64,000 bases of DNA from Nemophila menziesii (lineage: Eukaryota > Streptophyta > Magnoliopsida > Boraginales > Hydrophyllaceae): NCBI GenBank assembly GCA_029959085.1, contig JARWIR010000001.1, forward strand, positions 69,874,899 to 69,938,898. The letters run 5' to 3'. Made by a program: the position numbers and the translations under genes. Under the pieces are notes generated by a model, which was not told where the DNA came from, ran no database searches, and saw nothing but the letters and a program-made list of their open reading frames with translations. Below, piece after piece: positions 7,289 through 45,299 of the stretch; position 1 is the stretch's first letter; every line of letters starts with the position of its first letter.

Positions 7289-7744
7289 GCGATACACTGC
7301 AGCTTGGTGCGGTATACCGCACCATAGCTGCGGTGCACCACACCCAAGGAAAACCGTCATGGCAGTAATGTAATTGGGTACATGTGTGAGACACCAGTCC
7401 AAAAACCGTGTTGTCGCTCGTGCGTGTACCATGCCACGGGTTCCAACAGAGAAATCTTGCGGTACACCGCATCATACCCGCGGTGCACCGCAGGTCCATA
7501 AACAGTAAAACCGTTGAGAATTCGGGGGTTCATTTCAGTGCACATACAAAAAAATTGTGCGGTACACCACACCATACCCGCAGTGCAGCACATGGTCCAA
7601 GACCGTTACAACGGTTTGACAAATCAGGTCCATTGTCGAGAGACGCTTGTCAATACCGTGTCGTCAGAAGCGCAGAACCGTAACATGGTATTGGGAGCGC
7701 ATGATGTCACTCGCGGTACACCGCAAGGAAGTGCGGTACGCTGC
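7289..7744 (+). repeat. Paired near-palindrome array of element A (GCGGTACACCGC type)
   Basis: Twelve-base dyads of the form GCGGT-AN-ACCGC occur at 7289, 7309 and 7330, at 7459 and 7480, at 7559 and 7580, and at 7713 and 7733. Within a cluster the centres are 20 or 21 bp apart; clusters are 100-170 bp apart. The array lies between the pol stop and the accessory ORF. The surrounding sequence is AT-rich, so the GC dyads stand out. Long ORFs overlapping it (for example 7514-8068) look like by-products of the repeats. Confidence 0.85.
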
Positions 7745-8165
7745 AAGGAGTCAGTTGGGAAGATAATTGTGAAATTTTTGGATTTGAACCTAACAAAACT
7801 TAACCTTAGCTGTTTCCCAAGTCCCCAAAAACGATATTTTCAATTCCAAACCCAAGAAAAACACTTTGAAGAGACAAAAACACACTATGACCTTTCCTCC
7901 ATCAACCATAAATGTTCTAATATATTCCAAACATATAATCAAACATCAAATCCTTCAAAAACACCAAGAAATCTTCATTTTAATCCTAATTACTTCTTCA
8001 TCAAAGCTTTAATCTTAACCATTAAACCTCTCCCATACCATAACATAATCATTACCCATCACATATAATACCACATACCTTTTTCCTATATCCTCAAAAC
8101 ATCAAAGTTCAAAACTTTTCTCTAGGTTTTGAATTTTTGAAGTTTTGAGGTTGAGGTCCATTGAG

Positions 8166-8280
8166 ATGACAAACAGAACCGATTCCTTGTGCTACAATCG
8201 TAAACCGAGCAGTAATTCCAGAATTAGAAATTCTCTTGGGGCTACTGCAGACAAAGCAATTGAAATTCCAGATTCAATAT
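8166..8280 (+). pseudogene. Element A accessory ORF, 5' part
   Basis: ATG at 8166 starts MTNRTDSL..., which aligns with MTNRTGDF at the start of the accessory ORFs of elements B and C. It continues to the IEIPDS block, where element D interrupts it at 8281. The same block resumes at 60668. The leader before the ATG contains CTCTAG preceded by pyrimidines (about 8120), a possible splice acceptor for a subgenomic mRNA. Confidence 0.75.
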
Positions 8281-11200
8281 TGGTGTCACCTAAGGTGTGA
8301 TAAAAATATGATAAATAAATACGGATGATGATGCACAAACATCCTAGACTAAACTAGTTACGCACTGCAAGTATCACAGGTCGTACGCAAGTTTTAGTGA
8401 TAAGTCAGATTCGTTCTCAGGGACTTAGTGTATTATACGAATGGGTAACAAAATAGAGTAGTAATTAATAATTAAAAACATGAAAAGTAAATAAATATGA
8501 TTGAGGACATAATTATTAAAGTAAATAAACAAAGACAATAAAATAAAATAAGAAAGAATATAGATGAGAGAATATAGCTCAGGTTTTGCTCGTATGCACT
8601 AATCCTTCTATTTCTTCTACTAGTTAATAAGGGTGATTATAGCTCTTAGATAAGTAGTCAGGATTCTAAATACCTCCTAATCCCCTTCTGGGTGGACTTA
8701 GGTGGCGACCTCACAATTACCAAGGGACTTAACTAATGTGCTCCTACGCCACAGGTTCTTAGATGAGACTAGCTTGCAAATAATGATCGCTGATTAAATC
8801 AAACCCTAATGACTATCTAGTTAGGAAAGCCCTTCCGGATCACTACCGCACACTAGACGTTTATGTGGTGTGTCAATAATTAGACACCCCTTCCGGGTGA
8901 CCATCTAACTACTATTAGCATAACCCTAAATTGATCAGGTTTAAGACAGACAATAAATTAAAGCACATAAAACAAATATATGGTTAAGCAGCTAGAATCA
9001 ATTTAAAATAGTTCTCACAAAGAAACATAGATATAAGAAAATAGAATTCATAGATTATACATATCAAAACCCAAGATATGGAAAAATTAGTTCATACTAG
9101 AAAGAAATAAACTGAAATAAAGATACATACTGTCAACTTGCTCTCTTGAATGACTAAAGATTGGACTAAGGGTTAGAACTGAACAAGGACGGGCAAGGAC
9201 ATGTTTACAATAGTTAAATGGTGTATTTATAGAAGTCTAGGAAGCCCTAATTTGGATTTCTTGGAGTAGGAGGCAAGCAATTGGACTATTTTACCAAATC
9301 AAATTCGTAGCCTAAAATATAGAAAAGGTAAGAAACTGTTGCTGTCTTGTTTTGGCAGTAAATTCTTTAATATTGCTCCGATTTTCGCCTACTTTATATC
9401 GAAACGACCGTAATGAAAGCTATACACTTTAGCTTCAGACCATTGTTCCAAAATCCCAGCCGATTTTAAGTTATGATCACTTTAGTGGACGTAGCTTCTG
9501 AAATTCAAATTTACTTGACAACTTTATCTTTTCCCATTTTATCTTTTACTTCCTTTCTCTTATCTCTTGTAATTGATTTGTGGTGGGTCCTGGTGTGTTA
9601 TAAAATTAATACGATAAATAAAGGAACCACAATACCGCAAGTGCACGGTTGTCCAAGTAATATTCGATAAATCGGGTTTCGTTCTCAGGGACGGATTAGG
9701 TTTAACTCAAATATTTATCAGATAGTAGAAATAATTGCTTGACAGAAAAGTAAAATAATATGATTTTTGTTTGGTTTTTCTAATAACTAAAGAAGCAATA
9801 AAATAAAGACTACAAATAAATAAATGAAAAGAAATAATGCAAATAAAAGACTAGCTTCAGAGATGAGAGATACTTGAGTCTCGCAAGGAATCCACCTAAT
9901 TAACGTAACCTATGCTTTGTTTAAGGGTAGAATTGGTATTATAATACTAGTCGGGACTCTAATGTCTCCTAGCCCCCGTCAGGGTGGACCTAGGAGCTAT
10001 CCTAAAGTACTATGAACCCCTATATGGGCGAATATGCCTCTTCGGATGATATGAATTTACCTCTTTGGATATGCAATTAGTTAAGCTTGTCGGTCAATAA
10101 CGAACATTACACGGGTATTACCTAAGTTTGTATTCAAACCCCCCTGTCGGATGATCACTTCGCCACTAAAGTGAATAGCCCAAATACTGAAAGATATTTC
10201 TAGTTGTACCGAAAATAAATAGTGATTAAGAACAAAGTAATATCCAATATATAAGACTCAATTCAATTTAAATCATAACAATCCCAAATTCAAAACATTG
10301 AATAAATTAATTAGGGTTCATCCCTTTATTGCGATTCTCAAGTATATGAAAGTTTAACTCATAAATAAATTAAAGACTGAAATTAAATAGATAAAAGACA
10401 TCATATTCAATTACAGAAAAGAAATTGATAACCTAAGGGTTTGGTTGGCTATTGTTGGAAGAACATAATTCCTCTAGCTCTAGCTTTTCCTCTGCCTTCT
10501 TGCTCTGACTTGAAAATATGAAGCCTCTGATGTAATTCTCTGAAGTGTTTGACTCTCTCTAAGGATGTTTTAATGTGAAGAATAATTGAGAGGTGTTGAA
10601 TAATGAGGTCTAAGAGAGCTTATATAGGTGCTTAAAAACGTTTTAGGGTTTAGGTTAAAAGGATTAGGTTAAATTATAAAAAAACCCAAACCCATCTTTT
10701 CTTTTAATTCCCGTAACTGGTGTGCAACCTTTAGTAAAACGGCTTTAACTTTTGCATAACAACTCCAAATGGGCTGATTCAACTTGGAGAATCTTCCTAA
10801 CTCAATAGGCTATCAAACCAAGTTTCACGGCCCAAGGCTAAATCCGCTCCTAAGTAGCCAAAAAACAGCAATCTTTAACAGTCTTTCAGATCTGCAACTT
10901 TTTTAATTAAGTTCTTGAAAATTCTTTTCTTTTCTTTAGCTCCTCCACTCGATCTAAGATTTTAATTCTCACTTCTCCTCCTTGTAGTGGTTTCTTCATG
11001 AATTCATAAACCTACTAACTTTAAACTAAAACAAACAAATTAACGCACAAAAGCTCTAAAAATGCAAATAGTCTAATTCCAAGGAGAGAAAGTGCAATAT
11101 GACGAAATAAACATAAAAGTCTATCAAATAAGTCAAATATTTACCTAAACGATGTCTCCTAAGGGCTAATATATAGAAAAAATAGGGATACATCAATTTG

Positions 11201-11406
11201 TCATCTAATTAATTATCATATATCTGTAAAGCTTAACAATTAACAAACAATTAAACCAAATATGCTCTAAAAATAATAAATCATCAAATCAAGACAAGAA
11301 ATAAGAAAATATAATAATACTAATAAAAATAGATTAATTTTTTCCTAAATATTCCTAAAATGATGTCTCCAACCTAGATTAAATCATCACAAATAAAGAG
11401 ACATCA
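8281..11406 (-). repeat. 3' LTR of element D, split by a solo LTR
   Basis: On the plus strand it starts TGGTGTCACC and ends GAGACATCA next to the PPT. Removing the inserted solo LTR and one TSD copy leaves 1506 bp. A TATA box (complement of CTATAAATAC) lies near 9222. Hairpin-like units with CCTTCCGGGTG and CCTTCTGGGTG cores lie near 8691, 8828 and 8888, in the transcribed part. Confidence 0.85.
9581..11195 (-). mobile_element. Solo LTR of the element A family inside D's 3' LTR
   Basis: 1615 bp. It reads on the plus strand from TGGTGGGTCC to ATACATCA and is the reverse complement of an A-type LTR. It is flanked by ATTTG at 9576-9580 and 11196-11200. No internal region or second LTR accompanies it, so it is what remains after LTR-LTR recombination. 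The flanking D sequence joins cleanly when it is removed, by comparison with the D copy near 60460. Confidence 0.9.
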
Positions 11407-11442
11407 AGACCACCAACTCAAAGTTGTATCATCCCGATACAA
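11407..11442 (-). promoter_or_regulatory. Element D polypurine tract with upstream hairpin
   Basis: The complement of 11407-11420 is TTGAGTTGGTGGTCT-like, directly before the 3' LTR. Just upstream on the minus strand, 11424-11442 forms TTGTATC-GGGAT-GATACAA, a 7-bp perfect stem. Elements B, C and E have the equivalent hairpin at the same distance. In retroelements the PPT primes plus-strand synthesis; the role of the hairpin is not known to me. Confidence 0.75.
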
Positions 11443-12873: not shown

Positions 12874-13577
12874 TTACTGGATCTTTCTTTTATGGAGTGT
12901 CATGATGTGCACTTGATTAGCTTTGATTTGTGCCACCTCATTGGCCAAGAAAGTTTGAGCTGCTTCGACTTTATTTAATCGCTCCTCCATCTTTTCTCGC
13001 CAAATACGATCTTTTTCTTCTTTTGAAATTTTCGTAATTCCCGCTCCTCTCAAAATTGTCTTGATCCAAGCATTGAGAATATTGTTACTCGTCTTATACT
13101 TTACTTTCTCTTCTTCACCGGGAATCACATTCGCTTTCCGAACAAGGCACGTAATCATAGTAGGACATTCCACATTAAATAATGAAGTAGGAGAGACAGA
13201 AAATAGCATCACCTCCTCAAAGATCAACTGTGCCACATCCACTTCTTCTCCCCTTAAAATACAATCCAAAAAGATTGCGTTCTTCTTAGGTACATCTGAA
13301 TATCTCGTGTTTCCAAAGGCATTAGGTGAAAGAAAATTGTGCCAAACTCTTGTATCTGGTTGGAGATATTTGTAAGCACAAGGTGCATTTAATTCTCCCT
13401 TATGTGTTTGCACTTTCTCCTAATCTAAGACATGCTCAAAAAGTAGATTCCAATAGAAAGTCTTGATATTTTCCACTGTTTCTCTATACTTACATGGTCC
13501 AACTAATTTCTTGAACTGGAAGTGGTTTCTAATCTCTTCAACTGTAAAAGAAACTAACTTGCCTCTAACTGGAACAC

Positions 13578-14968
13578 TGTTGGCATATAGCCTCCCTTAA
13601 TAGGTTGTTTTAATGTGACAAATCCTCTTATGTTTAGTGTGCTAATTACTCTTGTTATATATATTCCTTCTTGCACTCTTTTTCATCAAAAAGCACTTCT
13701 TTATCTTTTAGATCAAAGCTTTAGTGTTATATGTTATGAAACTAATTCTCATATAAATACTTTTAACCTTATCTTTGTGTACATTGAGAATTAGCTTTAG
13801 TGATCAACTTCAAAGGTTCTTAGAATGATGTTTCCAACAACTTTCGTGAAGAAGATTTATTGATCCAAGTCATTATCTTTCAAAGTTACTTGGCGCGGTA
13901 CACCGGACGAATGGCGCGGTACACCGGACCAAGAATGCGGACCAGGGCGCGGTGCAGAGGCTAGCCCGTCAGTAAGTTAGAAAATCAAACCATTGAAGTG
14001 CGATACACCGCACGAAATCTTGCGGTACACCGCAAGAAAGGTTTTTCTGCACAAAAGACAAGTCATAAGTAATATATCCGTTGGGAGATTAATAGATCCG
14101 TTGGATCCAAGTCTTATGACCGTTGGAAGCCATTTTCTACTATAAATTGAAGCTCTTTGAAGGCTACAAACACACCAACTAATTACACACATTAAGGGGC
14201 TTAATTGTTATCATTCAAGAAGGTGTCAAAAGCTATACATAGTCAAAATCAACCTTAGTGAGCTTATAAGTCCTTTCAAGGAGTTAATCAAACAAGCCAC
14301 AAAGGTTCTATCTACTCAAGAGGAGTTCACAAGCTTTATAGTTCATATCCACTCTTTTAGGAGTTTAGTTACAAGCTTTTATAAGCAACCCTTTAAACAC
14401 TTTGTTTCTATCCTCTTAAGTCTAGGTCTTGTAATAGATAGATTAAGAGAGAATTCAAGTATAGGGAGTATACTTGGTATTCTTGTGTTGTGATTACACA
14501 AGTGGTTTGTCCTTCGTGTTATCGAAGAGGTTGTAAGGGTTATTGTGTTCTCGACCCGGTTAAGAGAGACACGGGAGCTTAGTGAAAAGCTTGAAATCCT
14601 AAGGAGGCTTCCTTAGGTAGTGGATGTAGGGAAACCGAACCACTATAAATCGTGTGTATCTTTCTATCCCTACTCTATTTACTTTCCGCACTTTATATGT
14701 TTGTTAAGATGCTAGCATGAATATTGTGATATTGATTATCTTGTTTATCTAACATATTGTCATCTAGAGTAGTAAGAGATTAGAAACTCGTTTTACTTGT
14801 ATCACTTATATATCGAACCTCTTAGCTTATCCATTGTATGATCCCTTAGGAGTTTGTTATATTAGTTGACTTAGAAGTTTCTTTCTTAAACTTATAATTG
14901 TCCAAAAGATTTTTAATTAGGCATTAATCTTATTAGTAATCCTATTCACCCCCCCTCTAGGACTTTCA
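13578..14968 (+). mobile_element. Solo copia-like LTR (TGTTGGCATA...GGACTTTCA) inside D
   Basis: 1391 bp, flanked by AACAC at 13573-13577 and 14969-14973. The 3' end carries the run CACCCCCCCTCTAGGA and internal landmarks (CCGAACCACTATAAATC, GACCCGGTTAAGAGAGACAC) that I associate with large plant Ty1/copia LTRs. Orientation is inferred from those landmarks. There is no internal region, so it is a solo LTR. It splits the accessory ORF of D. It also holds a paired-dyad array like those in the Athila elements. Confidence 0.85.
13895..14033 (+). repeat. Paired near-palindromes in the solo copia-like LTR
   Basis: GCGGTACACCGG occurs at 13895 and 13916 (21 bp apart), with a decayed third unit 21 bp on at 13937. 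A second pair, GCGATACACCGC at 14000 and GCGGTACACCGC at 14022, is 22 bp apart. Motif and spacing match the array at 7289-7744 in the unrelated element A. Confidence 0.85.
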
Positions 14969-15878
14969 AACACAACCTTTACTAGCTCGGCTAAAGAGGC
15001 CTAAATAGAATTCAGGAATCTAACTCAACACATATATTTGAACGTCTTACCATGAACGTAGACCAACCCAATCTTTCACTGATCTCCAAGAATATCTTGT
15101 ACTCACCTTTACTGACATCTTCTTTAAATACTCTCTCATAAGCAAAAGGAAGTTCCTGTAATTGTTTCTTTGCTGAAGCTATCAAGGCCTCTGAAACTTC
15201 TTCTTTTTCTTCAGGTGTTGGACTCTCGATCTGTAGGGGTTGTGGTGTCTTCTTTACGAAAGCTGGAACCTTTTTACCCAGTGAATTTACCACAATTAGC
15301 TGTCCTCTCTTCTCTTGACCTGTTTTTCCCTTTACGTTGGAACTTGAAATTTTCTTAATTGATTTCTTTTCAATAGAACCCAATACCTTTCTTTTCTTCA
15401 TCTCCTTAACAGTGGATAATGTTTCTGATCTTTTATTCATCTCAATTAACCTCCAACTCAAAGCTTTCACAACTCTTGAAATTTGAAACTCTTGATTATA
15501 GGTTGAACAAGCTTTATCTGGGTTAGGGAAGGTGTTATGATGATGATTCTCTATATGGGTATGATACATTCTTGCTTGATTGGTATGGATCTAAGAAATT
15601 GTTGGATGAGATTTGGAAATTTAGGCTTTTGATTCTTGGATTCAAAGTGTTTTCATATGATTTGGGTGGTTGAATATTCTTTATAATAATGTGGAGAAAG
15701 GATTGGATGTATTTTTATGGTGATTGGGTAGTGTTTTGATGTTTGGGGAAGGTTTGTTGAAACTTTAATGGAGTTGGGAGAGGTTTGGAGAATAAAAGAG
15801 ACTTAAAGAATTGAAAAATTCGGAATAGAACTAACCTCTTCTTCTTTTTAACCTAAAAACGAAATTTCTCTCTCTTTC

Positions 15879-16134
15879 CAGTGGCAGCCGCTGGCATACC
15901 GTTCCCAAACCGTGTCGACACTCGCGCCCACGGTTTTTCCCAATTACTCTCGTCATTGTACCTGATTTCCCCTACCGTGCGACCGTTTTTTTGCACCGGT
16001 ATACCGGCCTTGTGAGCGGCATACTGGTCCGGCTTTTTGACTTTTCTCTTTGTATCGGCTATGGACCTGATTTTGGGATCCGTGTCACGGTTTTTTGACC
16101 CACCGGCATACCGGTCATCTCACCAGATAGTCGG
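15879..16134 (-). repeat. Paired near-palindrome array of element D (CCGGTATACCGG type)
   Basis: Clear pairs are CCGGTATACCGG at 15996 with GCGGCATACTGG at 16016, and CCGGCATACCGG at 16103 with CCAGATAGTCGG at 16123. Each pair is 20 bp centre to centre. A decayed pair lies at 15879-15901. The array sits between the pol remnant and the accessory ORF, as in the other elements. Confidence 0.8.
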
Positions 16135-16924: not shown

Positions 16925-18490
16925 TGGTGGTCCTTTGTGTGTTCTAAAAATAAATGCAAATGCTAATCGAACCACAACCGCAAGTGTACGGTTGTCCCAA
17001 GTAGTATGTATGATAATACAGATTCGTTCCAAGGACGGATGGTTGATCAAAATGTTTAGCAAGTAGTGATTGATGCACTTATGAAAGTAAAAGATAATAA
17101 AATGTTTGTTTGGTTTTGTTGATTAAAGCTAATGAATGTAAGACAAATAATTAAATGCAAGTAAAAGCTAAGACGCAGGTAAACTAAGTGAAAACGCAAT
17201 ATGAGATGTAGTACTTGAGAACGCAAGGATCCTCCTAATCTTACTTCCTAACTTATGCTGTTTAAGGGCTAAATCGGTCAATTACAATGGTCGGGATTCT
17301 AAATTCCTTATACCCCCGTCAGGGTGGACTATAAGGCGATCCTAAAGTGTCACTAGTCCCGTCAGGGTAAATATGATCCACCGTTGGATGATTAAGTGTT
17401 TTACCTCATTGGCCCTAGAATTAGCTAAGTTCGTCAGAATCAATAGCTTTTATCCTAGATTGAATAATTAATTCTATACCTAAACCCTCCGTCAGGATGA
17501 TCCACACGCCACATATGTGAAATAGCTTAGATACTAATACCTAATCTTAGTTCGCGACTCTAAAATCAGTAAATAATCACAAATTATCGAAAAGAGTAAT
17601 GAACCCAATATAATTTAATTTAATTTAATATAAACCCAAATTCAACATTCGTTATTTCATAAAATTAAGATTCACCCATTGTTTGTTCTCAAGCACTATG
17701 AAAAGCTTAGCTCATATTAAAATTAAAAACTAAATTAAAAGAAATGGAATTCATATTGTTTACAGAATTAAAATATAAAAAGAACATAATTTCCGGAATT
17801 GGAATGACTACGAACGGAGCTATAGACCCACTCCAGCTCTTGTAGCTTCTTCTTCTTCCTTCTGTTGCTTCTCTCTGGTGTTTTAATCTTGTGGAATGTG
17901 AATTGTTTCAAAAATAGAAGTCCATACCTCCTTTTATAAGCATAAATTCGTTCTAGGGCTTGGACCAGAAAATAGAATATTACTTAAATGTCCAAGCCCA
18001 CTTTCTAAGCCCAAAATCCCGTAACTGCTGATACACCTTCACTAAAACGGCTTTTCCCGATGCGTTATGACTCCGATTTACCTCATTCCAGTTGCTAAAG
18101 TTCCGTAACTCGATAAGGAATGTTTTCTCTTCTAAGGTCAGCGGCTAAATCATCGCTTAAGCACCTCGAAATCAGCAATCTATAGCCTGGAAAATGGATT
18201 TTCAGCTCTAAAAATAATATCTTCGGGATTTATCTTCAAGTCTTGACTCTAATTCACGATCTTTGACTTTCTCCTCGGATTCCTCTCCTAGCTAACATCT
18301 AAAACCTGTAAACTTTACACTAAAAATACCAATATTACGCGCAAAAGTTTAATAAATTAAAAATGCTAGAAATAAAAAGGGAATTCCGGATTATTGCAAT
18401 TTAAGTCCAAAAGTCTATCAAATTAATTAAATAAACACAAAAAATGATGTCTCCTAAGGGTCTAAAATAAGAACAATTAGGGAGACATCA
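16925..18490 (-). repeat. 3' LTR of element B
   Basis: 1566 bp, TGGTGGTCCT to GGAGACATCA on the plus strand. Near-identical to 28213-29773. It contains the four-unit CCCGTCAGGG hairpin array (17315-17490) and an extra 5-bp AATTT-type repeat near 17610. Confidence 0.95.
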
Positions 18491-18526: not shown

Positions 18527-19973
18527 TAAAACAAAACAAAGGGGTAGAAGTAAGCGTATAAACAAATAGAAGCTAGCAAATAAACCCTAAAGCAATTCTC
18601 AGAATAAACCTCATATAGCAAACTCTAGAAACTAATATACACATACACTAATCATGCAACATCAAACCTAAATAATCTCAATCATAAAATTAAAGTCGCA
18701 ATGCTTGAAGGTTACACTTGTACTCATCTCTGTATGATGGCTATAGGGTGGTCATTAATCCTACCTCGCTTTGAATGTTCCACCTAGTGCATTCCCTATC
18801 AACAGAATCATAAATTCACTACGCACTTAGGAATCACGAGGTCTTTACGGTTATAATATTGGCTTAAGGACGGGTGTGGATGTATATTTGGTAAATTTGA
18901 AGTGAGCTTTTGGCTCTCTCCTCACTTACCATCAACAATGTCCTCGAGCTTGAGTTAACGCTCAAAAGATGTTCTCACTCACCCATATACGCAACAATTT
19001 AGCGTCCCATGTCTACTCACTATAAACAAGATGATTTTCAGAAAAAATCCCACTTTGCCGGATGTTTTATGTATTTTTCTTTTTCTTTTCTTTTTTCTCC
19101 TTTTTTTTGTACAGAAGCAAACCGGGTTCCCGGTTTTGACGAATCCGGGTTCCCGGTTCCTACTGTATGGATTTTCAACTTTTTTTTTTATTTTTTTTAT
19201 TTTTTTTCTTTCTTTTTCATTTTTCTTCATTCCCGGCAAAGGGTTACAAGTATATATCATCTGCAATTGTGCTACAATACAAAACATATCCATCCCATCC
19301 CATTAAATTCCCCATATATGGTCCCACCACCCCAAACTCAAGCTCGAGACATGTCTCAGGATTGTGATTCAAGTGCGGGTCATATGGTCATGCCTAATAA
19401 TCTAAGGGATAATGGCTTATATCGTGGCTACAAAGAAAAGGCTAAAGGCTCAAAGTGGGCTAAGACGGATAATAATTAATACAAGGGATAGAAGGCTAAA
19501 AAGGCACAAATGGCTAACAAAGAACTGCCCCTATCATTTTCCTAAGTACATAGCTTGTCTTTAGTTCATATCTAGGTGGGTTCTCTACTAATTAGGATTT
19601 CACGTTCTACACACCAAACATATTCCTTGAGTACAAGCTTACTTCATTTGCATTGTTCATTAATTTTTCCTATCAATTACCTATGTTCGCATGCAATTGT
19701 AAGTGCGTTTTATATCAATCCCTAAAGTCCACTATTTACTATCATAGATTTATCAAAAGTATGCTTCAAGGGATATTTAAAAATTTCTACAGTCAAACGC
19801 AACTCCGAAAATTCTTTTATTGAAAGCAAATAAAGCAAATAACACATAAAAATTGGGATGAGGCAACGAACCCCACCCCAAACTCAAAAATGAGTCGTGT
19901 CCCCACGACTCGAAAAGACTCAATAAAGCATTTAAACTAATATACACTAAGAGGAAAGTTTAGAAAACGTATC
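18527..19973 (-). other. 3' UTR of element B
   Basis: Non-coding. From the accessory ORF toward the LTR it holds a hairpin (19892-19911, GAGTCGTG-GGGA-CACGACTC) with a PPT-like tract (19871-19886), a second PPT-like tract (about 19323-19340), then CCCTTTGCCGGG (near 19224) and its partner CCGGCAAAG (near 19060). Those arms enclose a T-rich loop (plus strand) and a pair of AACCGGGTTCCCGGTT-type dyads centred at 19127.5 and 19150.5. ORFs predicted across it are low-complexity. Confidence 0.75.
19892..19911 (-). promoter_or_regulatory. Internal hairpin next to a PPT-like tract (element B)
   Basis: Minus-strand GAGTCGTG-GGGA-CACGACTC, an 8-bp perfect stem, is followed after a few bases by TGAGTTTGGGGTGGGG (complement of 19871-19886). 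It starts just after the accessory ORF stop. Equivalent modules are at 47073 (C), 37366 (E), 12736 (D) and 61952 (A). Confidence 0.75.
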
Positions 19974-21290
19974 TTAACCAGCGCGAGGCTGGTTATCGGT
20001 GTTGCGTTCTGGACCTTTATCTCGCGTAATAGCATCATAAATCGCGTTTTGAAGTGTATTTACGCCTAGGATTAAATTTCGAAGCAGGTCCAATTCTTTT
20101 GTAACGTTTCCCAAGGTAGCAATCATCCTCTCCTGATTTTCTTCCAACACCTGAATCTTCGCCTCCAACTCAGGTACAGTTTTCACTTTCTTTGATTGAG
20201 GAGTTCTCGGACTTCTTGTAGTTCGTGTTGCTTCTTCATGGATGTTCTTGATTGTGCTCAAGGCTATACTCACACCAACTGAAACAGTATCAATATCTGC
20301 GTCCTTACGCGGAATCTTTGCGTCTAAACACAACTGAGTAATAGTACAAGGAAACTTCAGATTTTGTTGTTTCATTGGTGATTTCACGAACTCCATGATT
20401 GTATCATAAATGATCTTTGCAACATCAAATGGTTTCTCCTCCAAAATACACTTAATAACAAATATGTGCTCTTTCTTCAACTCGGAAGTGTGTTTAATAC
20501 CAAAGAAAGTGGGTATTACGAAACGAGACCAAACCTTTGCACGAGGTGTCAAACTACTGCTGTAAAACTGTCCAGGATATCTTTCACCTTCAGGAATTGG
20601 GCTAGTCCCATTAATAAGCACGGTCCCCCAAAGGGATTCAAAATCAAAAGAAGGGTCATTAAGAATTTCTTGGAAGGGGCATGTTCCAGAAAAGTTGGAT
20701 AGTTTCAATGATTTCCGAATACGTTCAATAGAGAAAGGAACTACCTTTTTGCGGATATCAATGGCATCATGGGAGGTAGCTAAACCTTCGTAAAATTCTC
20801 ACACAAAAGTAGGAATAAACTCAAGCTTCCTTTCTTGTAACTCTTTCCAACCAAACTTAGCACATGTCACAGCATATTCCTTGTAATCACTACTCATAAT
20901 ACCCTTAGGAAAATTCGTCTCCTCACCAAATTTCAAAAATTCAATTCTTTCACGAACCTGAGTATTCCAACAAGTGTAAACCCTCTTAGGCTTGTGGGCC
21001 CACATCTTCATACGCGGAGGTTTTTGAACGGGTGCTTCCGGAATCTCTTGTTCAGTTTCCTTCTCAATGTTCTTCGTAATTTCCTCTTCTGGTTCCTTCT
21101 CATTTTCAATCTCATCAATCAATCTTCTCTTGTGACATGTGACTTCTTTTCTGTTAGAATCAAGCTTAACTTCGTCAATTTTTCGTTTAGGACGCGAATC
21201 AGGAATCTCAATAGCTTGATCTTGTGAACCACCAATGGTGGTCTTTCTTCTAGGAGCAGTTCTTCGAAAATCGCCGGTTCTGTTAGTCAT
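19974..21290 (-). pseudogene. Element B accessory ORF, one nonsense codon
   Basis: The frame runs from ATG (complement 21288-21290, MTNRTGDFRRTAPRR) to the stop at 19974-19976, 438 codons, with a single TGA at 20799-20801. Element C has CGA there, so the change is a CpG transition. The N-terminal ~110 residues are charged and low-complexity (EEEITKNIEKETEQE). The middle holds VRERIEFLKFGEE, FGWKELQERK and AKVWSRFVIPTFFGIKHTS, which I relate to plant 'putative transposon protein' ORFs. The C-terminus (VPELEAKIQVLEENQERM onward) reads as a coiled coil. No signal peptide or membrane span is visible, so an envelope role is not supported. Confidence 0.75.
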
Positions 21291-21689
21291 CTCTTTTCAC
21301 CCCAAACTCAAAACTTCAAATAATGAAAAACTTAGGGAAAAGTTTAGAATTTTGATGTTTTGAGGTTTAAGAATTTAAGAACTAGGTGAAATATGAGATG
21401 GGTCTTGGTTAATTTGTATGGGAGAAGAAAGAATTGGGTTTAATTTAAGGAATTGGGTGAAGAAGAATCTTGGGAAAAACTAAGGATTTGATGATATTTT
21501 GGAGAGGAGGTGAGTTGATCTTATGTTTTTTTTTTTTTGTGGTGAAAGAGGGTAGGATTTGATGATATATAGTGTTTTGGTAGATGAATTTCGGAGGTGG
21601 GGAGGCTATTGGTGCGTTTTAGGTAAAGACTTGGAAAAGAGGCTAAGAAACTAGGTTAAAACACCTCAAAACCGACATCACAGCTTTCA

Positions 21690-22212
21690 AACCGGGTTCC
21701 CGGTTTTGGCAAACCGGGTTCCCGGTTCCGCGTCGCTGTGACGGCGCGGAAAAACAATGTGGACTTTTTTTTTTTCAAAACGCTGGACCTCAAGACGCGG
21801 GGTCAGAGATTTTACTCGCCGAAACCAGGTACCCGGTTTCTGTGGAATGCGGGTTCCCGGATTTTCTCGATGGCGCGAATGAAAACGCGCCAAAACGCAG
21901 CACCCCAAAACGCTGGACCAGAGAATTTCACCATCAGCAGCTCCGAAACCGGGTACCCGGTTCTGTGGAATGCGGGTTCCCGGTTTTGTGTCGATGGCGC
22001 GAACCAAAACGCAGCAAAACGCAAGCCACCAAAACGCTGGGTCAGAGATTTTCAAAAGTTACAGCACCGAAACCGGGTACCCGGTTTCGCCAAATGCGGG
22101 TTCCCGGTTCCGACGCTGTGTCATGAACCCAAAACGCAAGGTGCTGCGTATATAGTGTTGGTACCAGCTCCAAAACCGGGTTCCCGGTTTTTGCGAAACC
22201 GGGTTCCCGGTT
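21690..22212 (-). repeat. Paired near-palindrome array in a ~125-bp tandem repeat (element B)
   Basis: Dyads of the form AACCGGG-TT/TA-CCCGGTT occur in five pairs. Centres are at 21697.5/21719.5, 21830.5/21854.5, 21954.5/21978.5, 22078.5/22101.5 and 22181.5/22204.5, that is 22-24 bp within pairs. Three pairs sit in tandem units beginning AAAACGCTGG at 21777, 21907 and 22031 (periods 130 and 124). The array lies between the pol stop and the accessory ORF and is much richer in GC and CpG than its surroundings. Confidence 0.9.
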
Positions 22213-28212: not shown

Positions 28213-29773
28213 TGGTGGTCCTTTGTGTGTTCTAAAAATAAATGCAAATGCTAATCGAACCACAACCGCAAGTGTACGGTTGTCCCAAGTAGTATGTATG
28301 ATAATACAGATTCGTTCCAAGGACGGATGGTTGATCACAATGTTTAGCAAGTAGTGATTGATGCACTTATGAAAGTAAAAGATAATAAAATGTTTGTTTG
28401 GTTTTGTTGATTAAAGCTAATGAATGTAAGACAAATAATTAAATGCAAGTAAAAGCTAAGACGCAAGTAAACTAAGTGAAAACGCAATATGAGATGTAGT
28501 ACTTGAGAACGCAAGGATCCTCCTAATCTTACTTCCTAACTTATGCTGTTTAAGGGCTAAATCGGTCAATTACAATGGTCGGGATTCTAAATTCCTTATA
28601 CCCCCGTCAGGGTGGAATATAAGGCGATCCTAAAGTGTCACTAGTCCCGTCCGGGTAAATATGATCCACCGTTGGATGATTAAGTGTTTTACCTCATTGG
28701 CCCTAGAATTAGCTAAGTTCGTCAGAATCAATAGCTTTTATCTTAGATTGAATAATTAATTCTATACCTAAACCCTCCGTCAGGATGATCCACACGCCAC
28801 ATATGTGAAATAGCTTAGATACTAATACCTAATCTTAGTTCGCGACTCTAAAATCAGTAAATAATCACAAATTATCGAAAAGAGTAATGAACCCAATCTA
28901 ATTTAATTTAATATAAACCCAAATTCAACATTCGTTATTTCATAAAATTAAGATTCACCCATTGTTTGTTCTCAAGCACTATGAAAAGCTTAGCTCATAT
29001 TAAAATTAAAAACTAAATTAAAAGAAATGGAATTCATATTGTTTACAGAATTAAAATATAAAAAGAACCTAATTTCCGGAATTGGAATGACTACGAACGG
29101 AGCTATAGACCCACTCCAGCTCTTGTAGCTTCTTCTTCTTCCTTCTGTTGCTTCTCTCTGGTATTTTAATCTTGTGGAATGTGAATTGTTTCAAAAATAG
29201 AAGTCCAGACCTCGTTTTATAAGCATAAATTCGTTCTAGGGCTTGGACCAGAAAATAGAATATTACTTAAATGTCCAAGCCCACTTTCTAAGCCCAAAAT
29301 CCCGTAACTGCTGATACACCTTCACTAAAACGGCTTTTCCCGATGCGTTATGACACCGATTTACCTCATTCCAGTTGCTAAAGTTCCGTAACTCGATAAG
29401 GAATGTTTTCTCTTCAAAGGTCAGCGGCTAAATCATCGCTTAAGCACCTAGAAATCAGCAATCTATAGCCTGGAAAATGGATTTTCAGCTCTAAAAATAA
29501 TATCTTCAGGATTTATCTTCAAGTCTTGACTCTAATTCACGATCTTTGACTTTCTCCTCGGATTCCTCTCCTAGCTAACATCTAAAACCTGTAAACTTTA
29601 CACTAAAAATACCAATATTACGCACAAAAGTTTAATAAATTAAAAATGCTAGAAATAAAAAGGGAATTCCGGATTATTGCAATTTTAGTCCAAAAGTCTA
29701 TCAAATTAATTAAATAAACACAAAAAATGATGTCTCCTAAGGGTCTAAAATAAGAATAATCAGGGAGACATCA
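28213..29773 (-). repeat. 5' LTR of element B
   Basis: 1561 bp. On the minus strand it starts TGATGTCTCCC and ends ACCACCA next to the primer site. It includes a likely TATA (TATAAAA, complement of 29215-29221) and a 5' end inverted repeat (complement of 29728-29737 against 29764-29773). By eye about 1.2% different from 16925-18490. Confidence 0.95.
29215..29221 (-). promoter_or_regulatory. TATA box of the element B 5' LTR
   Basis: The minus strand reads TATAAAA after GCT, about 550 bp into the LTR. The same position in the C LTR reads ATTATAAAAGGG. Confidence 0.55.
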
Positions 29774-30499
29774 GTTTATCGAACACATACTTTGGCATAA
29801 GATTCACACCTGGACCCACATCACATCACACATAGCTTTCATCTTGAGCATGCCATTTATTTGAATAGGAAGATTAAAGCTTCCTGGATCTTTAAGCTTC
29901 AATGGTAACTCTTTTTCAACTCTTCTTGAGACTCTCTCAGCATGAGCCACAGTCTCTTTCCTGGCTTTTACACACGCTTCTGGAATAACTTGCATGAAAA
30001 CTTGTTGTGGTGTAAGCCCTTTCTTCGTAATCTCAAGAATTTGGGCGTTGATATTTTCCAGAGTATACGCCTTTACAAATGTCTTGAGTTCAATGTCAAC
30101 CTTCAGATTTATATCAGGAATAGTTGGTGACATTGTTTGAATGATCGGTGGCAAGCCCACCTTCTCTTCTTCTTTCTTTTCTTCTTGCACATCAGGTGCA
30201 ACTTATTCTTTCAACTCTTTTGAGGCTTCTTCCTCTTATTCTTTAGCTCTAGCAGCTTGTAACTCCATAACCGATCTAATCTCTTCTTGCATATCTCTTA
30301 GAAGGTTTATAAAGTCGGATCTTTTAGACGAATCCTCTTCTTCATAACAGTCAGAGTCTTCGGGGCTAGACTTGGTTGGTTCTTCTTTAGTTTTGGGAAC
30401 TTCCACGGCACTTTCTGCATCATGCGGTACTTCCTTATTCACTTCTATTCCAAGGAAAATTTCTTTACAAGCTTCGAACCCAACATTGGCATCACCTCC
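29774..30499 (-). pseudogene. Element D Gag C-terminal region and protease N-terminal part
   Basis: Minus-strand ORFs 30236-30442 and 29804-30190 form one decayed region. It has an acidic/serine stretch (EESSPED-like, DSDCYEEED), a helical segment (FINLLRDMQEEIRSVM), then LPLKLKDPGSFNLPIQING and MKAMCDV, the lead-in to the protease active site (compare [18 protein letters not shown] and KALCDLGAS in B). The frame continues into NLMPKYVFDK at 29774, where B interrupts it. The linker is quite unlike that of B, C and A, so D is a distinct lineage. The right edge is the E insertion, TSD CCTCC at 30495-30499. Confidence 0.8.
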
Positions 30500-32013
30500 T
30501 GATGTCTCCTCATTAGTGATAATAAAATCTAATTCCGAGACATCATTTTAGGCGTATTTATTAGTTTATAGGTCGATTTTAGCTTGAATTAGTGTACTTT
30601 CCTATTTTGGGCCTTGAATTAATTAATTATTATTTTTAGAGCATATTGGGTTTAATTATTTATTTAGTGTGAATCTTTAGAGATATATGGTAATTAATTA
30701 GAGTCCAAGTTGGTTCAAAGAGCTAAAGGAAAGAAGATAAACATGGGAATTGAAGATAAGGAAGTCAAAGCTAAAAACATGGAAAAGGATAACCTGACTT
30801 AAATATGAATTTCTGCACCTACGACCACAAATCAGCTTATATCTTAAAATCGGTGAGGAATTTGGAGAAACGGTCAAGATTAAAGTTGAATAACTTTTTT
30901 GAGACGATGAATTTGGTATACTCATACGCGTCAAACGGATAAGTATTGAAGCTGTTAGGACCAAAAGAAAAACGAGGCTGATTGCATGTTTTTGGGCTAC
31001 GAATTTGAGTTGGGCTTGGAGCCCATCTTTACCTTTTCCTTCAAGAAAACGAATTAGGCCAACCTATACACTATAAATACGGCATCTTAGCACTCTAAAA
31101 TCATCCTTGGTGAAACCTTAAACCAAGAGGAAGCTTACAACACAAGAAAAGAAGCCTGGAAGGAGCTGTGCATCAATAATGTCTTCTTCTACCTCTGAAT
31201 TTGTAATTTCTTTCTTTTCTTCCATTAGTATGAACTAAAATTCTATTAGCTTGAGTTTTTAGCATATATGTGTGAACCCTAGTTTTGGTTGACATATATC
31301 TAATTTGGGAATTTTATGTTTTAAATTGAATTATTGTTTTTATTCTCTGTTTATGTGTTTGGATTTATATTCTGTGTTCTTGTGGAAGCGCGCCCATATA
31401 GAATTACCATCTAGTAGTTAGGTCACCATTGACAACGGTGTTTAATTACATGTTTAGCACATAACGTCTAGTATTCGGTTTAGATCTGACAATTCAACCT
31501 AACTAGATAATCACCATGGTTTAGTATATATTGCTATTTACCAATTGCAGGAACAGTTTGCTTAGGACTCCTTATTGACACAGGTAAACCCTATTTAAAA
31601 CTACCTAGCACAATTGGAACCGATTATTGAAATACTACATAATTCACCCTTACATGTTTAGAACGTCAAAACTAGTGGGGATTACATGCTATTGACTCAA
31701 GCTATACTCTCATACTACTTCTTCTCTTGCATTTAAATTTCTGTCTTTACTTTTGTAGTTTAATTTAGATTAATTGAAAACCAAATAAATATCTATTTGT
31801 CTTTACTTTTTCTGCGTTTTAATTGTTCTAGCTTTTTATATTTGCACTTGGTTATTGCATAAGATTCCCCTAACCTTCGTAGTCTCTGCGGAACGAATCT
31901 TACTTAATCATTAAAACTTGCACTCGATCTGTATACTTGCAGAACCGTGCCAGTCTAGGGTGATTATTTGCACATTATTTATATCATATTTTATCACACC
32001 CTAGGCCGTACCA
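30500..32013 (+). repeat. 5' LTR of element E
   Basis: 1514 bp, TGATGTCTCCTCATT to CCGTACCA. TATA box CTATAAATAC at 31071-31080. The leader holds a hairpin-like CACC-ATTGACAAC-GGTG near 31422. The 3' copy (51418-52930) differs at scattered positions. Confidence 0.92.
31071..31080 (+). promoter_or_regulatory. TATA box of the element E 5' LTR
   Basis: CTATAAATAC, about 570 bp into the LTR. LTR F has the identical string near 63514 and the D LTR has it near 9222, so it is conserved across this LTR group. Confidence 0.6.
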
Positions 32014-32019
32014 AGTTTT

Positions 32020-35900: not shown

Positions 35901-36180
35901 AAACAAACGATGGCATGATAGACGACTCTGTCCAAAGCATTTCGAGAGAGGACAAAAGGTTTTATTATACAACTCTCGATTTTTTAACTACCCAGGAAAA
36001 CTTAAATCCCGTTGGGGAGGACCTTACATTGTTATAAAAGTCACACCTCATGAAGCGATTGAAATTGAACATCCAACCGAGCAAAGGACATTCATGGTGA
36101 ATGGCCAGCGTTTGAAAAGATACCATGACAGTGAGGACTTTGGGCGAGAGGAAACAATCCATCTCGTAGAAAACGATTAG
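32932..36180 (+). pseudogene. Element E pol (protease end, RT, RNase H, IN), broken
   Basis: After the protease end, the linker (33070-33390) leads to RT (33394-34116, SDWVSPVQC, FMDDF), RNase H (CDASD, TDHSAI), IN zinc finger ([15 protein letters not shown]) and IN core ([28 protein letters not shown]), so the IN triad is visible. Stops are at 33068, 33376 and 34114 (TAG where B has TGG). A frameshift near 35698 and more after 35900 break the C-terminus, whose last block (FMVNGQRLKRYHD) ends at about 36180. The 542-codon stretch 34132-35760 is the longest open part. Confidence 0.88.
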
Positions 36181-36408
36181 CCTGAGGTACACGTCTAACT
36201 CAAAGACGTTAAACAAAAGTGCTCTTGGGAGACACCCCTTATTTAAATTTCTTTTTAGATTAGTTTATTGCTTTGTAGTGTATAATTTTAAGTTAGTGTA
36301 TATTTTTAATTGTGTTACAAGCTAATAGGAGAGAAAGGTAGTGTGTTGTTGTGCAGAAAATGAGTTTGGGGTCAAAAGGACTTACTTGGGAAAAATTCGG
36401 TTCACTGA

Positions 36409-36743
36409 CCGGTATGCCGGTCAGACCACCGGTATGCCGGTGGGAAGACGCGTGCCCACGGGTTGGTGACTCGGTTTCATTGCCGAGAGGTCCCAAAAAG
36501 AAAAGCCAGGCGCACCGGTATGCCGCTCAGGGCACCCGTATCCCGGCCAGAGGAAAAACATGTGGCCACGGGGTTCACGCCACAGGTTTTTTGACGGAGT
36601 CGCTCCTGGACGAAAAAAAAGCACCGGTATGCCGGCGAAGGAAAAACACGTGCCCACTGGTAGAGTCTCGGGTTCATTGATGAGAGGTCCAAGAAGAAAA
36701 TACGTCCAGTACCGGTATGCCGCCGAAACAGCCGGTATACTGG
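36409..36743 (+). repeat. Paired near-palindrome array of element E (CCGGTATGCCGG type)
   Basis: Pairs at 36409/36429, 36515/36535 and 36712/36732, each exactly 20 bp apart, plus a single unit at 36624. Between them are repeats around ACGTGCCCAC (36450, 36560, 36650) and GAGAGGTCC (36484, 36682), so the larger unit is about 100-200 bp. Position is again pol stop to accessory ORF. Confidence 0.88.
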
Positions 36744-37101
36744 CGATAGGTCGATTTTGAAGTGTTTGAATCCTATTTTACTTCTTACCTTATCAAACTT
36801 AACCCTAGCCTCTCCCACACAAAATTTTCAGACCCAAACACTATATATAGACCTTGAAGCTTGTCCAAACCTTCACAATTAACACAACAACATCAATAAT
36901 TCTCTCCTCCATCCTCCATAAACACAATTTCTTCATCAAATTCATCACACTACACCATTAAACACCTTCAAGAACATCAAGCTTTCAAGAATTCTTCCAA
37001 AATTCATCAAAAAACCTTTCTCTTTCATCAATTCCAAGCAACAACCTCAAGCTACACCAATTTATCTTAACTTTTAATTCATCCTTGGTATAACTTGAAT
37101 T

Positions 37102-37405: not shown

Positions 37406-37468
37406 ATTCGTTGTCCTCATCTTCTTTTCGTTTTTGCATAAAATTTAAAATTTTTAGGTTGAATTAAG

Positions 37469-39039
37469 TGATGTCTCCCTAATTGTTCTTATTTTCGACC
37501 CTTGGGAGACATCATTTTTGATGTTTAGTTGAATATTTTGATAGACTTTTGAGTTAAAAATGCAATAATCCGGAATTCCTATTTTATTTCTATTATTTTT
37601 GATTTATTAAACTTTTGCACGTAATCTTGTGTATTTTAGTGAAAATTTTGTAGGTTTTGAATATTAGCTAGGAAAGGAATCCGAGAAGAGAGTCAAAGAT
37701 CGTGATATGGAGTCAAAGCTTGAAGATAAATCCCGAAAGAATTATATTTTGGAGCTGCAAATCTGGAAAACAGGCCAAAGATTGCTGATTTCGAGGCACT
37801 TACGAGTTGATTTAGCCGCTGACCTTTTGAAGAGAATGTTCCTTATCGAGTTACAGAAATTTAGCAAGTGATTTTAGGACAATAGGAGTTATAACGAATC
37901 GGCTAGAACTGTTTTAGTGGAGGTGGTGCAGCAGTTACGGGATTTTGGGCTTAGAAAATGGACTTGGGCTTTTAATTAGTGATTTAATCTTAAGTCCAAG
38001 GCCTAATCCGTTTTTATTATTATAAAAGGGCCTTTTTACTTCTATTTTTCATACAACTCATTATTCATAAGCAGAAGCATAAGAGAGAAGTCAACGAAGG
38101 AAGAAGAAGAAAGCTGTAGAGCTGGAGAGTGTCTATATCTCCATTCTCAGCCAAATCCAATTCCGGAAATTAGGTTTTCTTTAATTTTAATTCTGTAAAA
38201 CACTATGAGTTCGCTTTCTTTTAATTTAGTTTTAATTTCTATTAGCATGAGCTAATTTCTTTTGGTACTTGAGAAGGCATAACGGGTGAATCCCTATTCT
38301 GTTGAATTTCATATGTCTGAATTTGGGTTTTTAATAAATTAGATTAAATTGGGTCTTTTACATTTTTCTGTAATTTGAGATTATTTACTGTTTTCGGAGT
38401 AATTAACCAAGAACAGGTGTTAGTATCTAGGCTATTCCACATATGTGGCGTGTGGATCATCCTGACGGAGGGTTTAGGTACGGACTTAATTACTTAATCT
38501 AAAATTGAAACTATTTGATTCTGACGAGCTTAGTTAATTTTAGGGCCAATGTGGTAAAATTACTTAAACATTCGAAAGTGGATCATATTTACCCTGACGG
38601 GACTAGTGACACTCTAGAATAGCCTTGTAGTCCACCCTAACGGGGGTACAAGGAATTTAGAATCCCGACCAATGTTAATTGACCAATTTAACCCTTAAAC
38701 AACATATGTTATGAAATAGAACTAGGAGGATCCCTTGCGTTTCTCAAGTACTGCCTTCTCATATTTGCGTTTTACCTTCATTTCCTTGCGTCTTAGTATT
38801 TAATTGCATTTTTACTTTAATCTTTCATTACTTAGAATTAATACAAACAACCAACCAATCATTATATCTTTTATCTGCTTTTGTAAGTGCAACCATTCAT
38901 TATCTGATAAGCATTGTAGTTAACCAACCGTCACTGAGAACGAATCTGTTATCACTATTATTACTTGGGACAACCGTACACTTACGGTTGTGGTTCAATT
39001 ACTTTTTGCATTTATTTTAGAACACACAAAGGACCACCA
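37469..39039 (+). repeat. 5' LTR of element C
   Basis: 1571 bp, TGATGTCTCCC to GGACCACCA. The first 46 bp form an inverted repeat (37469-37479 with 37504-37514). TATA-like TTATAAAAGGG is near 38022. Four TGAC-loop hairpin units (ATCCTGACGG near 38460, TTCTGACGAG near 38519, CCCTGACGGG near 38592, CCCTAACGGG near 38635) lie in the leader. Confidence 0.95.
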
Positions 39040-39045
39040 AGTTTT

Positions 39046-39064
39046 TGGCGCCGCTGCCGGGGAC
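39046..39064 (+). promoter_or_regulatory. tRNA-Asp-type primer binding site of element C
   Basis: Exact TGGCGCCGCTGCCGGGGAC after the LTR. Confidence 0.92.
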
Positions 39065-39177
39065 GGTAGCGTGTGACCACGGTGTTTATCCTTTAGTGAT
39101 AGTTGCATTTATTTTTATTTTTATCAGTTTACGCTTTTTTGTTTGTTCTTCTCTTTCAGAATTTTTAGGTTTGGTGC

Positions 39178-43700: not shown

Positions 43701-44654
43701 GAGATGCCACGTAATAATGTGTTAGAAGTTTAAATATTCGATGTTTGGGGTATAGATTTTATGGGTCCGTTCGTTCCTTCAAATATTAACCTCTACATCT
43801 TATTAGCTGTTGATTACGTGTCTAAATGGGTAGAAGCTGTGGCTTTACCAACCAATGATTCACGAGTGGTGATTAAGTTTTTGAAGTCACATATTTTCAC
43901 TAGACATGGTACACCTAGAGTGATTATTAGCGATGGCGGATCTCATTTCGTTAATAAGTATTTGAAGGCTGTTCTAGAAAAGTATGGTGTAATACACCGT
44001 GTATCTACTGCATATCATCCACAATCCAATGGTCAAGCTGAAGTATCAAATCGTGAAGTAAAATCAATCCTAGAGAAGACTGTTGGTCCTACAAGAAAAG
44101 ATTGGTCAATGAAGTTAGATGATGCGTTGTGGGCCTATCGTACTGCGTTTAAGACTCCAGTTGGTGCATCTCCGTATCGTATGGTGTATGGTAAGGCTTG
44201 TCACTTACCTCTTGAGCTTGAAATGGGTGCCTATTGGGCAATTGCACAGTTGAACTTAGATCCTACCTTAGCCGGAGAGAATCGTATGATGAAGCTTAAC
44301 GAACTAGACGAATTCCGATTGAATGCCTATGTAAATGCCAAACTTTACAAAGAAAACACAAAGAAATGGCATGACAATCGGATTCGTGTAAAGAACTTTG
44401 AAGTGGGACAAAAAGTATTGAAGTATAATTCAAAGTTCAGCAATTATCCGGGTAAGCTAGGGTCTAAGTGGTCGGGTCCGTACATTGTGACCAAAGTTAC
44501 ACCTCATGGGGCGATAGAAATAGAACACCCGCTTAAGAACCGTACCTTCATGGTAAACGGTCATCGCCTAAATATATACCATGGAGGTGAAGATACCAAC
44601 CGCTTGGAAGATCCACATCCCGGAGAGGTCATGTATCTCTTCGAGACTCCGTAG
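40741..44654 (+). pseudogene. Element C pol, broken
   Basis: Protease ([11 protein letters not shown], about 41140), RT (42176-42700, FMDDF), RNase H (43041 on, TDHSAI), IN ([25 protein letters not shown]) and the GPYIV end are all present in order. Lesions: TGA 41463-41465 where B has a CGA codon, a 1-bp loss near 41818, TAG 41870, TAG 42083, frameshifts near 42415 and 42715, TAA 43038 and TAA 43731. The last 297 codons (43761-44654) are open and very close to B. Confidence 0.9.
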
Positions 44655-44888
44655 AAGCGTGAGGTAACCCGTCGAGCTTAACGACGTTAAACAAAAGCCA
44701 ATTCATTGTATATTAGTTTGAGTTTTAATTTCCGTAGTGTAAATTATTTCGATTTTCATATTTTTAGTGTTTATTAGTAAGAAATGAGGAAGGGTAGTTG
44801 TTTTTGATGATTTCAGGGGTAAAAAGGTCATGAGTTTGGGGTCGAAAGGGCGTAAATAGAGGAAAAAGTGGTGGTGTTCCAGGGGCAA

Positions 44889-45299
44889 AACCAGGAACCC
44901 GGTTTCGAGAGCAAAAAATTCCGAGTTTCTGACCCAGCGTTTTGGGTCCCGCCAAATTGCTGCGTCATCACTGCATCTTCATTCGCGCCATCGACGGAAA
45001 CCGGGAACCCGGTTTCGCACAAACGGGGAACCCGGTTTTGGTGCTGTATTTTTTTAAAGTTTCTGACCCAGCGTCTTCGAGCCCGCTTTCTGCTGCGTCT
45101 TGGTCCGCGTCCTCGTTCGCGCCGTCGACACGAACCGGGGCCCTGGTTTTGCACAAACCGTGTACCCGGTTTCGAAGGGTAACTTTCTGACCAAGCGTTT
45201 TAGGGTCCAGCCATTATTTGCGTTTTGAGGTATAAAAAAAATTTAATTAAGTCTTGTTTTCGCGCCGACACAGCGACGCGAAACCGGGAACCCCGGTTT
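44889..45299 (+). repeat. Paired near-palindrome array of element C
   Basis: AACCGGGAACCCGGTT-type dyads are centred at 44896.5 (partner decayed), 45006.5/45029.5, 45140.5/45163.5, and a single unit at 45281-45299. Pair spacing is 23 bp. TTTCTGACCCAGCG-like blocks recur at about 44935, 45060 and 45187, giving a tandem period of about 127 bp, the reverse complement of the unit in element B, as expected from opposite orientation. Confidence 0.88.

Follow-up and report, generated by a model that had tools for sequence, protein, structure and literature searches.

Phased palindromes downstream of pol

Why do several retrotransposon families in one plant genome carry paired, GC-rich palindromes at the same place, between pol and an accessory open reading frame (ORF)? 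This question is raised by a stretch of 64,000 nucleotides from Nemophila menziesii (contig JARWIR010000001.1, positions 69,874,899 to 69,938,898 of the forward strand; hereafter the window), which is filled by nested long terminal repeat (LTR) retrotransposons within a host genome of 1.5 Gb. An earlier note on this DNA had described palindromes (dyads) in five of these elements, A to E, and had proposed that they come in pairs with centres 20-24 bp apart, or about two helical turns. Dyads are indeed present in all five linkers and the spacing is upheld. The name Athila for these elements is adopted from that note, and the domain order gag-PR-RT-IN in B, with matching pieces in the other elements, is that of Ty3 elements and not that of the Ty1/copia Sireviruses.

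There are 27 strict matches to CGG-N4-CCG (CGGNNNNCCG) in the window, compared with a mean of 1.9 and a maximum of 5 in 60 dinucleotide shuffles of the window. Of these, 21 are located in the five arrays (A 4, D 2, B 9, E 5, C 1), three follow the accessory ORF in B and C (19123, 19146 and 47814), and three reside in an insert within D (13896, 13917 and 14023). There are none within the six annotated LTRs of B, C and E. The length of the middle is sharply defined, with 27 sites at four nucleotides versus 0-5 for every other length from 0 to 12. When counted per linker, there are 4 sites in A, 5 in D (3 from the insert), 9 in B, 5 in E and 1 in C, and the corresponding shuffle means are 0.05-0.25 (300 shuffles each). 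By the strict count, C falls short of significance on its own, since one mismatch is present in most of its sites.

The excess of dyads is specific to the CGG-N4-CCG form. Dyads of 12 bp with at most one mismatch and any composition number 7, 15, 13, 9 and 7 in A, D, B, E and C, versus shuffle means of 5.6, 14.5, 8.5, 6.3 and 7.5. These values are not clearly above shuffles in any linker, which speaks against the earlier note, and a general dyad excess was therefore rejected.

A relaxed search, permitting one mismatch and requiring at least 6 of 8 symmetric pairs, yields 31 sites, compared with a mean of 1.6 and a maximum of 4 in 40 local-composition shuffles. One of these sites (27408) sits within the B coding frame and is probably a chance match. 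All ten spacings of at most 60 bp between neighbouring relaxed sites are 20-24 bp, including two from outside the five arrays (the D insert and the pair downstream in B), and none fall between 25 and 78 bp. The insert itself spans about 1.4 kb (about 13600-14975) inside the D accessory ORF and is unclassified, with only weak target-site and terminal similarity.

B and D are minus-strand elements; read in the sense direction, the D and E motifs merge, as do those of B and C. This leaves three types, which are GCGGT..ACCGC (A), CCGGTATGCCGG (D and E) and CCGGG..CCCGG (B and C), or in longer form TGCGGT-NN-ACCGCA, ACCGGTATGCCGGT and AACCGGG-NN-CCCGGTT, respectively. All share CGG-N4-CCG, and the outer and inner neighbours of this core differ between types jointly on both arms. 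The motif is thus a constant core with family-specific neighbours. The earlier note had called the motif itself family-specific, but there are only three types and the common core had been missed. Moreover, motif type does not follow pol divergence among these few lineages, given that D and E share a motif though the integrase piece of D is by far the most diverged (28% identical to B, versus 56-80% for A and 58% for E).

The first called dyad begins 225-254 bp past the pol end in all five elements, where the pol ends of A (near 7081), D and E are approximate values estimated from tblastn. This agrees with the location first proposed. However, the assignment of such arrays to every Athila family was too wide. 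The linker of a further element, F, falls outside the window, and a relative from another plant lacks dyads. This relative is represented by two loci (L081 and L082) recovered when genome contigs were scanned with an integrase piece, both in bacterial assemblies (titled Solirubrobacter sp. CPCC 204708 and Geminicoccus harenae CPCC 101083). They are probably plant retrotransposon DNA contaminating these assemblies, and their integrase is 60% identical to that of B. The two are identical at 6,897 of 6,906 positions and were counted as one outgroup. In this one case, neither dyads nor an accessory relative are found in roughly 2.9 kb past the pol frame.

Arrays in other copies of the genome

The loci fetched from the same genome, which is the source of all tested families, comprise 8 of the B/C family (L001-L008), 30 of E (L009-L038), 30 of A and 12 short loci of D, wherein those of B/C, E and A were chosen by best match and form a non-random sample. 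Without the 3 copies of the window itself and 5 A loci that overlapped or duplicated others, 72 copies remain (B/C 7, E 29, A 24, D 12), with some retained A loci of one contig being near duplicates. At least one site is present in 71 of these 72 copies, the exception being an A locus. Spacings of at most 60 bp are 20-23 bp in 65 of 67 cases (A 17/17 at 21; E 31/33 at 20-21; D 8/8 at 20; B/C 9/9 at 22-23) and the other two are 28 and 42 bp. These spacings are not independent trials because copies share descent and arrays hold tandem units. The inner pair of the 4-bp middle is complementary in 58 of 61 strict sites of A and in 35 of 37 of B/C. The D copies also carry CCGGCTAGCCGG, located 20 bp from CCGGTATGCCGG. 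All 8 loci of the B/C family also have a dyad or pair on the downstream side of the accessory ORF.

A candidate internal promoter

The elements present a common order of features, beginning with the pol end and continuing through about 235 bp, a CpG-rich array, a TATA-like box (present in B, C and E and in some A copies, but not in D) and about 280 bp to the accessory ATG. There are eight CpG-rich stretches in the window (GC at least 0.5 and CpG observed/expected ratio (o/e) at least 0.6), and the five arrays and the D insert account for six of these. The remaining two, at 2111-2311 and 54121-54321, are without strict dyads. The TATA-like box is 3' of the array in B, C and E. Among E loci, TATATAT is retained in 17 of 30, of which 13 have it 103-104 bp past the last called dyad, 3 at 212 bp and 1 at 53 bp, and a TATAA form is present in 7 of 19 aligned A rows. 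The distance from box to ATG is 281 bp in B and 277 bp in one E locus (L010). The accessory frame starts with MTNR in A, B/C and E.

Since the array is followed by a TATA-like box, then by a leader of about 280 bp and the accessory ORF, it most likely represents the upstream part of an internal promoter. We give a probability of roughly one half to the proposal that the arrays form the upstream activating part of such a promoter, which would serve the accessory ORF, and that they are bound by a dimeric factor, probably of host origin. The arrays would then be cis-regulatory DNA that offers clustered, phased sites to a dimer-binding protein. Each dyad comprises two inverted half-sites, wherein the invariant CGG/CCG core surrounds a variable 4-bp middle, as would be expected of targets of dimeric DNA-binding proteins. 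The placement of paired dyads approximately two helical turns apart might let two dimers occupy the same face of the DNA, and the internal promoter would make a separate accessory mRNA. We infer dimer binding, promoter activity and the host origin of the factor from the sequence. A platform for a dimeric protein, as the earlier note had suggested, is still the best reading of the arrays, whereas the further idea of binding by the accessory protein, with a specificity that drifts along with the site, is not supported, as discussed below.

Sequence constraint on the dyads

If the dyads are functional, they might be better preserved than their surroundings, and this is what is observed for the A family, which is diverged. 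The A alignment includes 19 of 30 loci, with the other 11 being duplicates, second pieces or partial matches. In the search, its 18 copies matched the window copy at 71-84% identity. The sites were called on the window copy alone, and two rows look unrelated downstream. The dyad 14-mers are 0.869 identical versus 0.753 (standard deviation 0.040) for random 14-mers of the array, a value reached by 9 of 20,000, and none of 583 rigid shifts match the dyad identity. Retention of CpG is 0.824 in the arms, 0.716 in the rest of the array and 0.538 outside the array. Thus, the A dyads change less than neighbouring sequence, and constraint on them is supported in this family. Likewise, the identity between B and C is 0.79-0.85 in dyads (76/96) and 0.60-0.66 in the rest of the array (191/290).

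A number of observations weigh against this reading. D and the window copy of A lack the TATA-like box or have it only in doubtful form, as do 12 of 19 A rows, and no TATATAT occurs at the box position in 13 of 30 E loci. The identity measured for A dyads may be inflated by the aligning of similar repeats with each other, and identity between B and C is no higher in the dyads (0.79) than beyond the array (0.84; 756/900 downstream). For the young E family, plain conservation across 30 copies reveals no dyad excess (identity 0.947 in dyads, 0.938 in the rest of the array, 0.968 upstream and 0.944 downstream), and CpG retention is 0.893 in dyads, 0.846 in the rest of the array and 0.889 upstream. 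Variants common to at least 4 of 30 E copies are absent from all 40 arm columns, compared with 5 of 20 columns of the middle and 36 of 293 in the remainder of the array. The comparison of E arms with the rest gives p values of 0.21, 0.013, 0.056 and 0.14 at variant thresholds of 3, 4, 5 and 6, and is therefore significant at one threshold only, with dyad columns that were chosen from the same alignment as tested. In most strict sites of E and D, the inner bases of the middle do not pair (they are complementary in 29 of 172 and 13 of 38, respectively). Finally, the published prediction for Athila, in the available part of PMC2829016, is that the accessory mRNA is spliced.

Alternative explanations

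The strongest rival is functionless turnover of tandem repeats, wherein a palindromic unit is recopied and the 20-24 bp spacing is simply inherited. Tandem arrays are present at 21819-22107 (period 124), 13894-13940 (period 21) and 36507-36545 (period 20), the number of units differs among copies, and asymmetric middles such as TATG hold one orientation within a family. The absence of a conservation excess in E is also as expected from turnover. However, three motif types with unrelated linking sequence exhibit nearly equal spacing and occupy the same place after pol, the A dyads resist change more than the surrounding repeats, and the CGG core is common to Sireviruses. We regard this explanation as unlikely.

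A somewhat less likely explanation is that the accessory protein itself binds the dyads, for autoregulation or anti-silencing, and that site and protein evolve together. The arrays lie directly before the accessory ORF, and the protein has many basic residues in its N-terminal part and, in a low-confidence model, a long helix towards its C terminus. However, the predicted structure of the B accessory piece (8-row alignment) is unusable, with a mean predicted local distance difference test (pLDDT) score of 43. Furthermore, the E copies retain their arrays, yet a search of about 1.5 kb downstream with the C-terminal B piece and the F piece as queries gave a PF20167-type match in 0 of 30 loci. 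The frame in this family (L009-L038) is short, with about 150 amino acids in better copies and at least 140 in 16 of 30 loci, which suggests loss of the PF20167 domain. A specificity that drifts with its site is also at odds with the constant CGG/CCG core and with the motif common to D and E despite their strong divergence. A host transcription factor is the more likely binder, because arrays persist without PF20167, because the core is constant while accessory proteins diverge, and because the same core appears in Sireviruses and in the D insert. Literature searches for a known plant binder of the dyad site gave nothing usable.

The least probable alternative is that the dyads act as RNA (the earlier note had raised an RNA cruciform pair), with transcript hairpins that serve small interfering RNA (siRNA) production or a packaging or processing step. 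Folding clearly surpasses shuffles in B (z score -7.6, 0/100) and A (z score -4.75, 0/100) and small RNAs are reported to be in excess over maize Sirevirus palindrome clusters (available part of PMC10760457, citing Bousios 2016), but folding is marginal in E (z score -2.2, 3/100) and unremarkable in C (-1.7, 7/100) and D (-1.15, 26/200), the inner middle pair stays complementary in A and B/C where a tetraloop would not need it and is mostly not so in E and D, and siRNA output would explain silencing and not the retention of sites by the element.

Elements and other features of the window

The coordinates are collected in Table 1. B and C are members of a single family; C is nested inside E, and D is interrupted by B. 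The extra ORF between pol and the 3' LTR carries the Pfam domain PF20167 in B, C and F (at 61064), it is represented by a piece in D, and in E it is the short frame described above. A large protein database searched with the accessory ORF returned 695 candidates, none of which scored, and viral contigs scanned with the accessory alignment gave no confirmed match. There is no Rfam match at gathering scores in the whole window.

A short inverted repeat (GTC...GAC), with TTAAA or a like sequence after it, lies just beyond pol in B, C, E, D and L081, and is degenerate in A. A GGGAG..CCC element adjoins this repeat in E, D and L081. In addition, copies resembling a polypurine tract (PPT), GAGTTKGGGGT, are located ahead of the array and of the 3' LTR, and also immediately in front of the accessory ATG. 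One extra PPT is recorded for Athila4 and Calypso linkers in the available part of PMC2829016.

Table 1. Positions of arrays, accessory ORFs and other features, numbered from the first nucleotide of the window (o/e, observed/expected)
Feature	Position	Strand	Remarks
A array, TGCGGT-NN-ACCGCA dyads, pairs 21 bp apart	7289..7744	+	GC 0.524, CpG o/e 1.05
A accessory ATG (MTNR...)	8166..8168	+	Frame interrupted by other sequence from about 8280; sequence reading, repeat boundary
D accessory ORF piece	13126..13581	-	About 29% identical to B; tblastn
Paired dyads (21 and 22 bp) in unclassified D insert	13894..14040	not assigned	Inside D accessory ORF; CpG-rich 13841-14091
D accessory ATG (MNKR...)	15438..15440	-	Sequence reading
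D array, CCGGTATGCCGG / CCGGTATACCGG dyads	15879..16134	-	GC 0.535, CpG o/e 1.17
B LTRs	16925-18490, 28213-29773	-	98.5% identical
B downstream dyad pair, 23 bp apart	19117..19160	-	Flanked by A-rich tracts
B accessory ORF (PF20167)	19974..21290	-	ATG 21290; in-frame stop just before 20798
B TATA-like box	21565..21571	-	126 bp past last called dyad centre; 33/33 compared bases identical to C
B array, AACCGGG-NN-CCCGGTT dyads, pairs 22-24 bp apart	21690..22212	-	Tandem units of about 124 bp; GC 0.547, CpG o/e 1.30
E LTRs	30497-32013, 51415-52930	+	96.4% identical
E array, CCGGTATGCCGG dyads, pairs 20 bp apart	36409..36743	+	GC 0.576, CpG o/e 1.05
E TATA-like box	36842..36849	+	104 bp past last called dyad
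C LTRs	37469-39039, 48470-50041	+	96.5% identical
C array, dyads of the AACCGGG-NN-CCCGGTT type in pairs 23 bp apart	44889..45299	+	GC 0.523, CpG o/e 1.46
C TATA-like box	45415..45423	+	
C accessory ORF (PF20167)	45689..46979	+	Frameshift near 46240; ATG set by alignment with B
C downstream dyad	47807..47826	+	In extended inverted repeat TACAGT...ACTGTA; flanked by A-rich tracts
GTC...GAC inverted repeat	22444-22400, 16367-16300	-	
GTC...GAC inverted repeat	44655-44700, 36175-36220	+	Also in L081 at about 4010
PPT-like GAGTTKGGGGT	36362, 37391, 44832, 45670, 48457, 51405	+	
PPT-like GAGTTKGGGGT	18493, 21299, 22258	-	

Relation to known systems

The closest known feature is the RM box of Sireviruses (PMC2829016; Bousios et al. 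2010), and the comparison that follows relies on the available part of that paper. RM boxes are palindromes present in many copies, wherein a CGG-CCG core is found in 12 of 13 elements of Table 3 of that report. In the linker, 77 of 79 RM boxes are located upstream of ENV, and linker copies occur only in ENV-bearing elements. The outgroup element described above, which has neither dyads nor an accessory relative, fits this rule. RM-box clusters define CpG islands, and an internal promoter has been suggested for them. They are also abundant in Sirevirus LTRs, where a TATA box is found shortly past the clusters.

The arrays examined here resemble RM boxes in their CGG-CCG palindromes and many copies, in the location of most strict sites between pol and the accessory position (with the others downstream or in the insert), and in coinciding with CpG-rich stretches. 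Moreover, the CCGGCTAGCCGG of D fits the core of the Citrus consensus AATCCGGCTWRCCGGATT (Table 3 of PMC2829016). The picture is mixed for the TATA box of the Sirevirus LTR clusters, since a TATA-like box follows the arrays in B, C and E and in 7 of 19 A rows and is doubtful in D. There are also differences. The carriers here are Ty3/gypsy and not Ty1/copia elements, there are no strict sites in annotated LTRs of the window, and the middle is fixed at 4 bp, compared with 4-6 bp by our own count of Table 3. Paired spacing is not mentioned for RM boxes in the available part of PMC2829016. The earlier note knew of no phased paired dyads in this region; for the palindromes themselves and for their location, RM boxes are a close precedent already in print. 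In the same material, Athila is mentioned just for the extra PPT and predicted splicing, and only predicted splice acceptors are cited for expression of its accessory ORF.

The plastic CpG islands of Del elements (Ty3/gypsy; PMC4029996) similarly form a CpG-rich stretch of variable length in a plant Ty3 element, but these are located in LTRs, and no mention of palindromes was found in the available part of that report. In the open-licence literature we found no reports of such arrays in Athila. Arrays of short motifs in noncoding DNA are also characteristic of VANDAL elements, which are plant DNA transposons whose own protein, VANC, binds these motifs and has an anti-silencing role. The elements described here share this arrangement, but they are retrotransposons, for which binding by their own accessory protein is the less likely reading.

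One broader proposal, which we offer tentatively and consider less probable than the promoter function itself, is that two superfamilies with an accessory gene (Ty1/copia Sireviruses and Ty3/gypsy Athila), together with further plant transposons (the D insert being an example), arrived convergently at a single regulatory code. This code would consist of CGG-Nx-CCG palindromes, in phased pairs here, that are read by one family of dimeric host factors and drive the internal promoter of the accessory gene. With a phased palindrome array in front of a TATA-like box, the idea of an internal promoter is open to direct test. A core in common with Sireviruses would suggest that unrelated elements make use of a single host factor.

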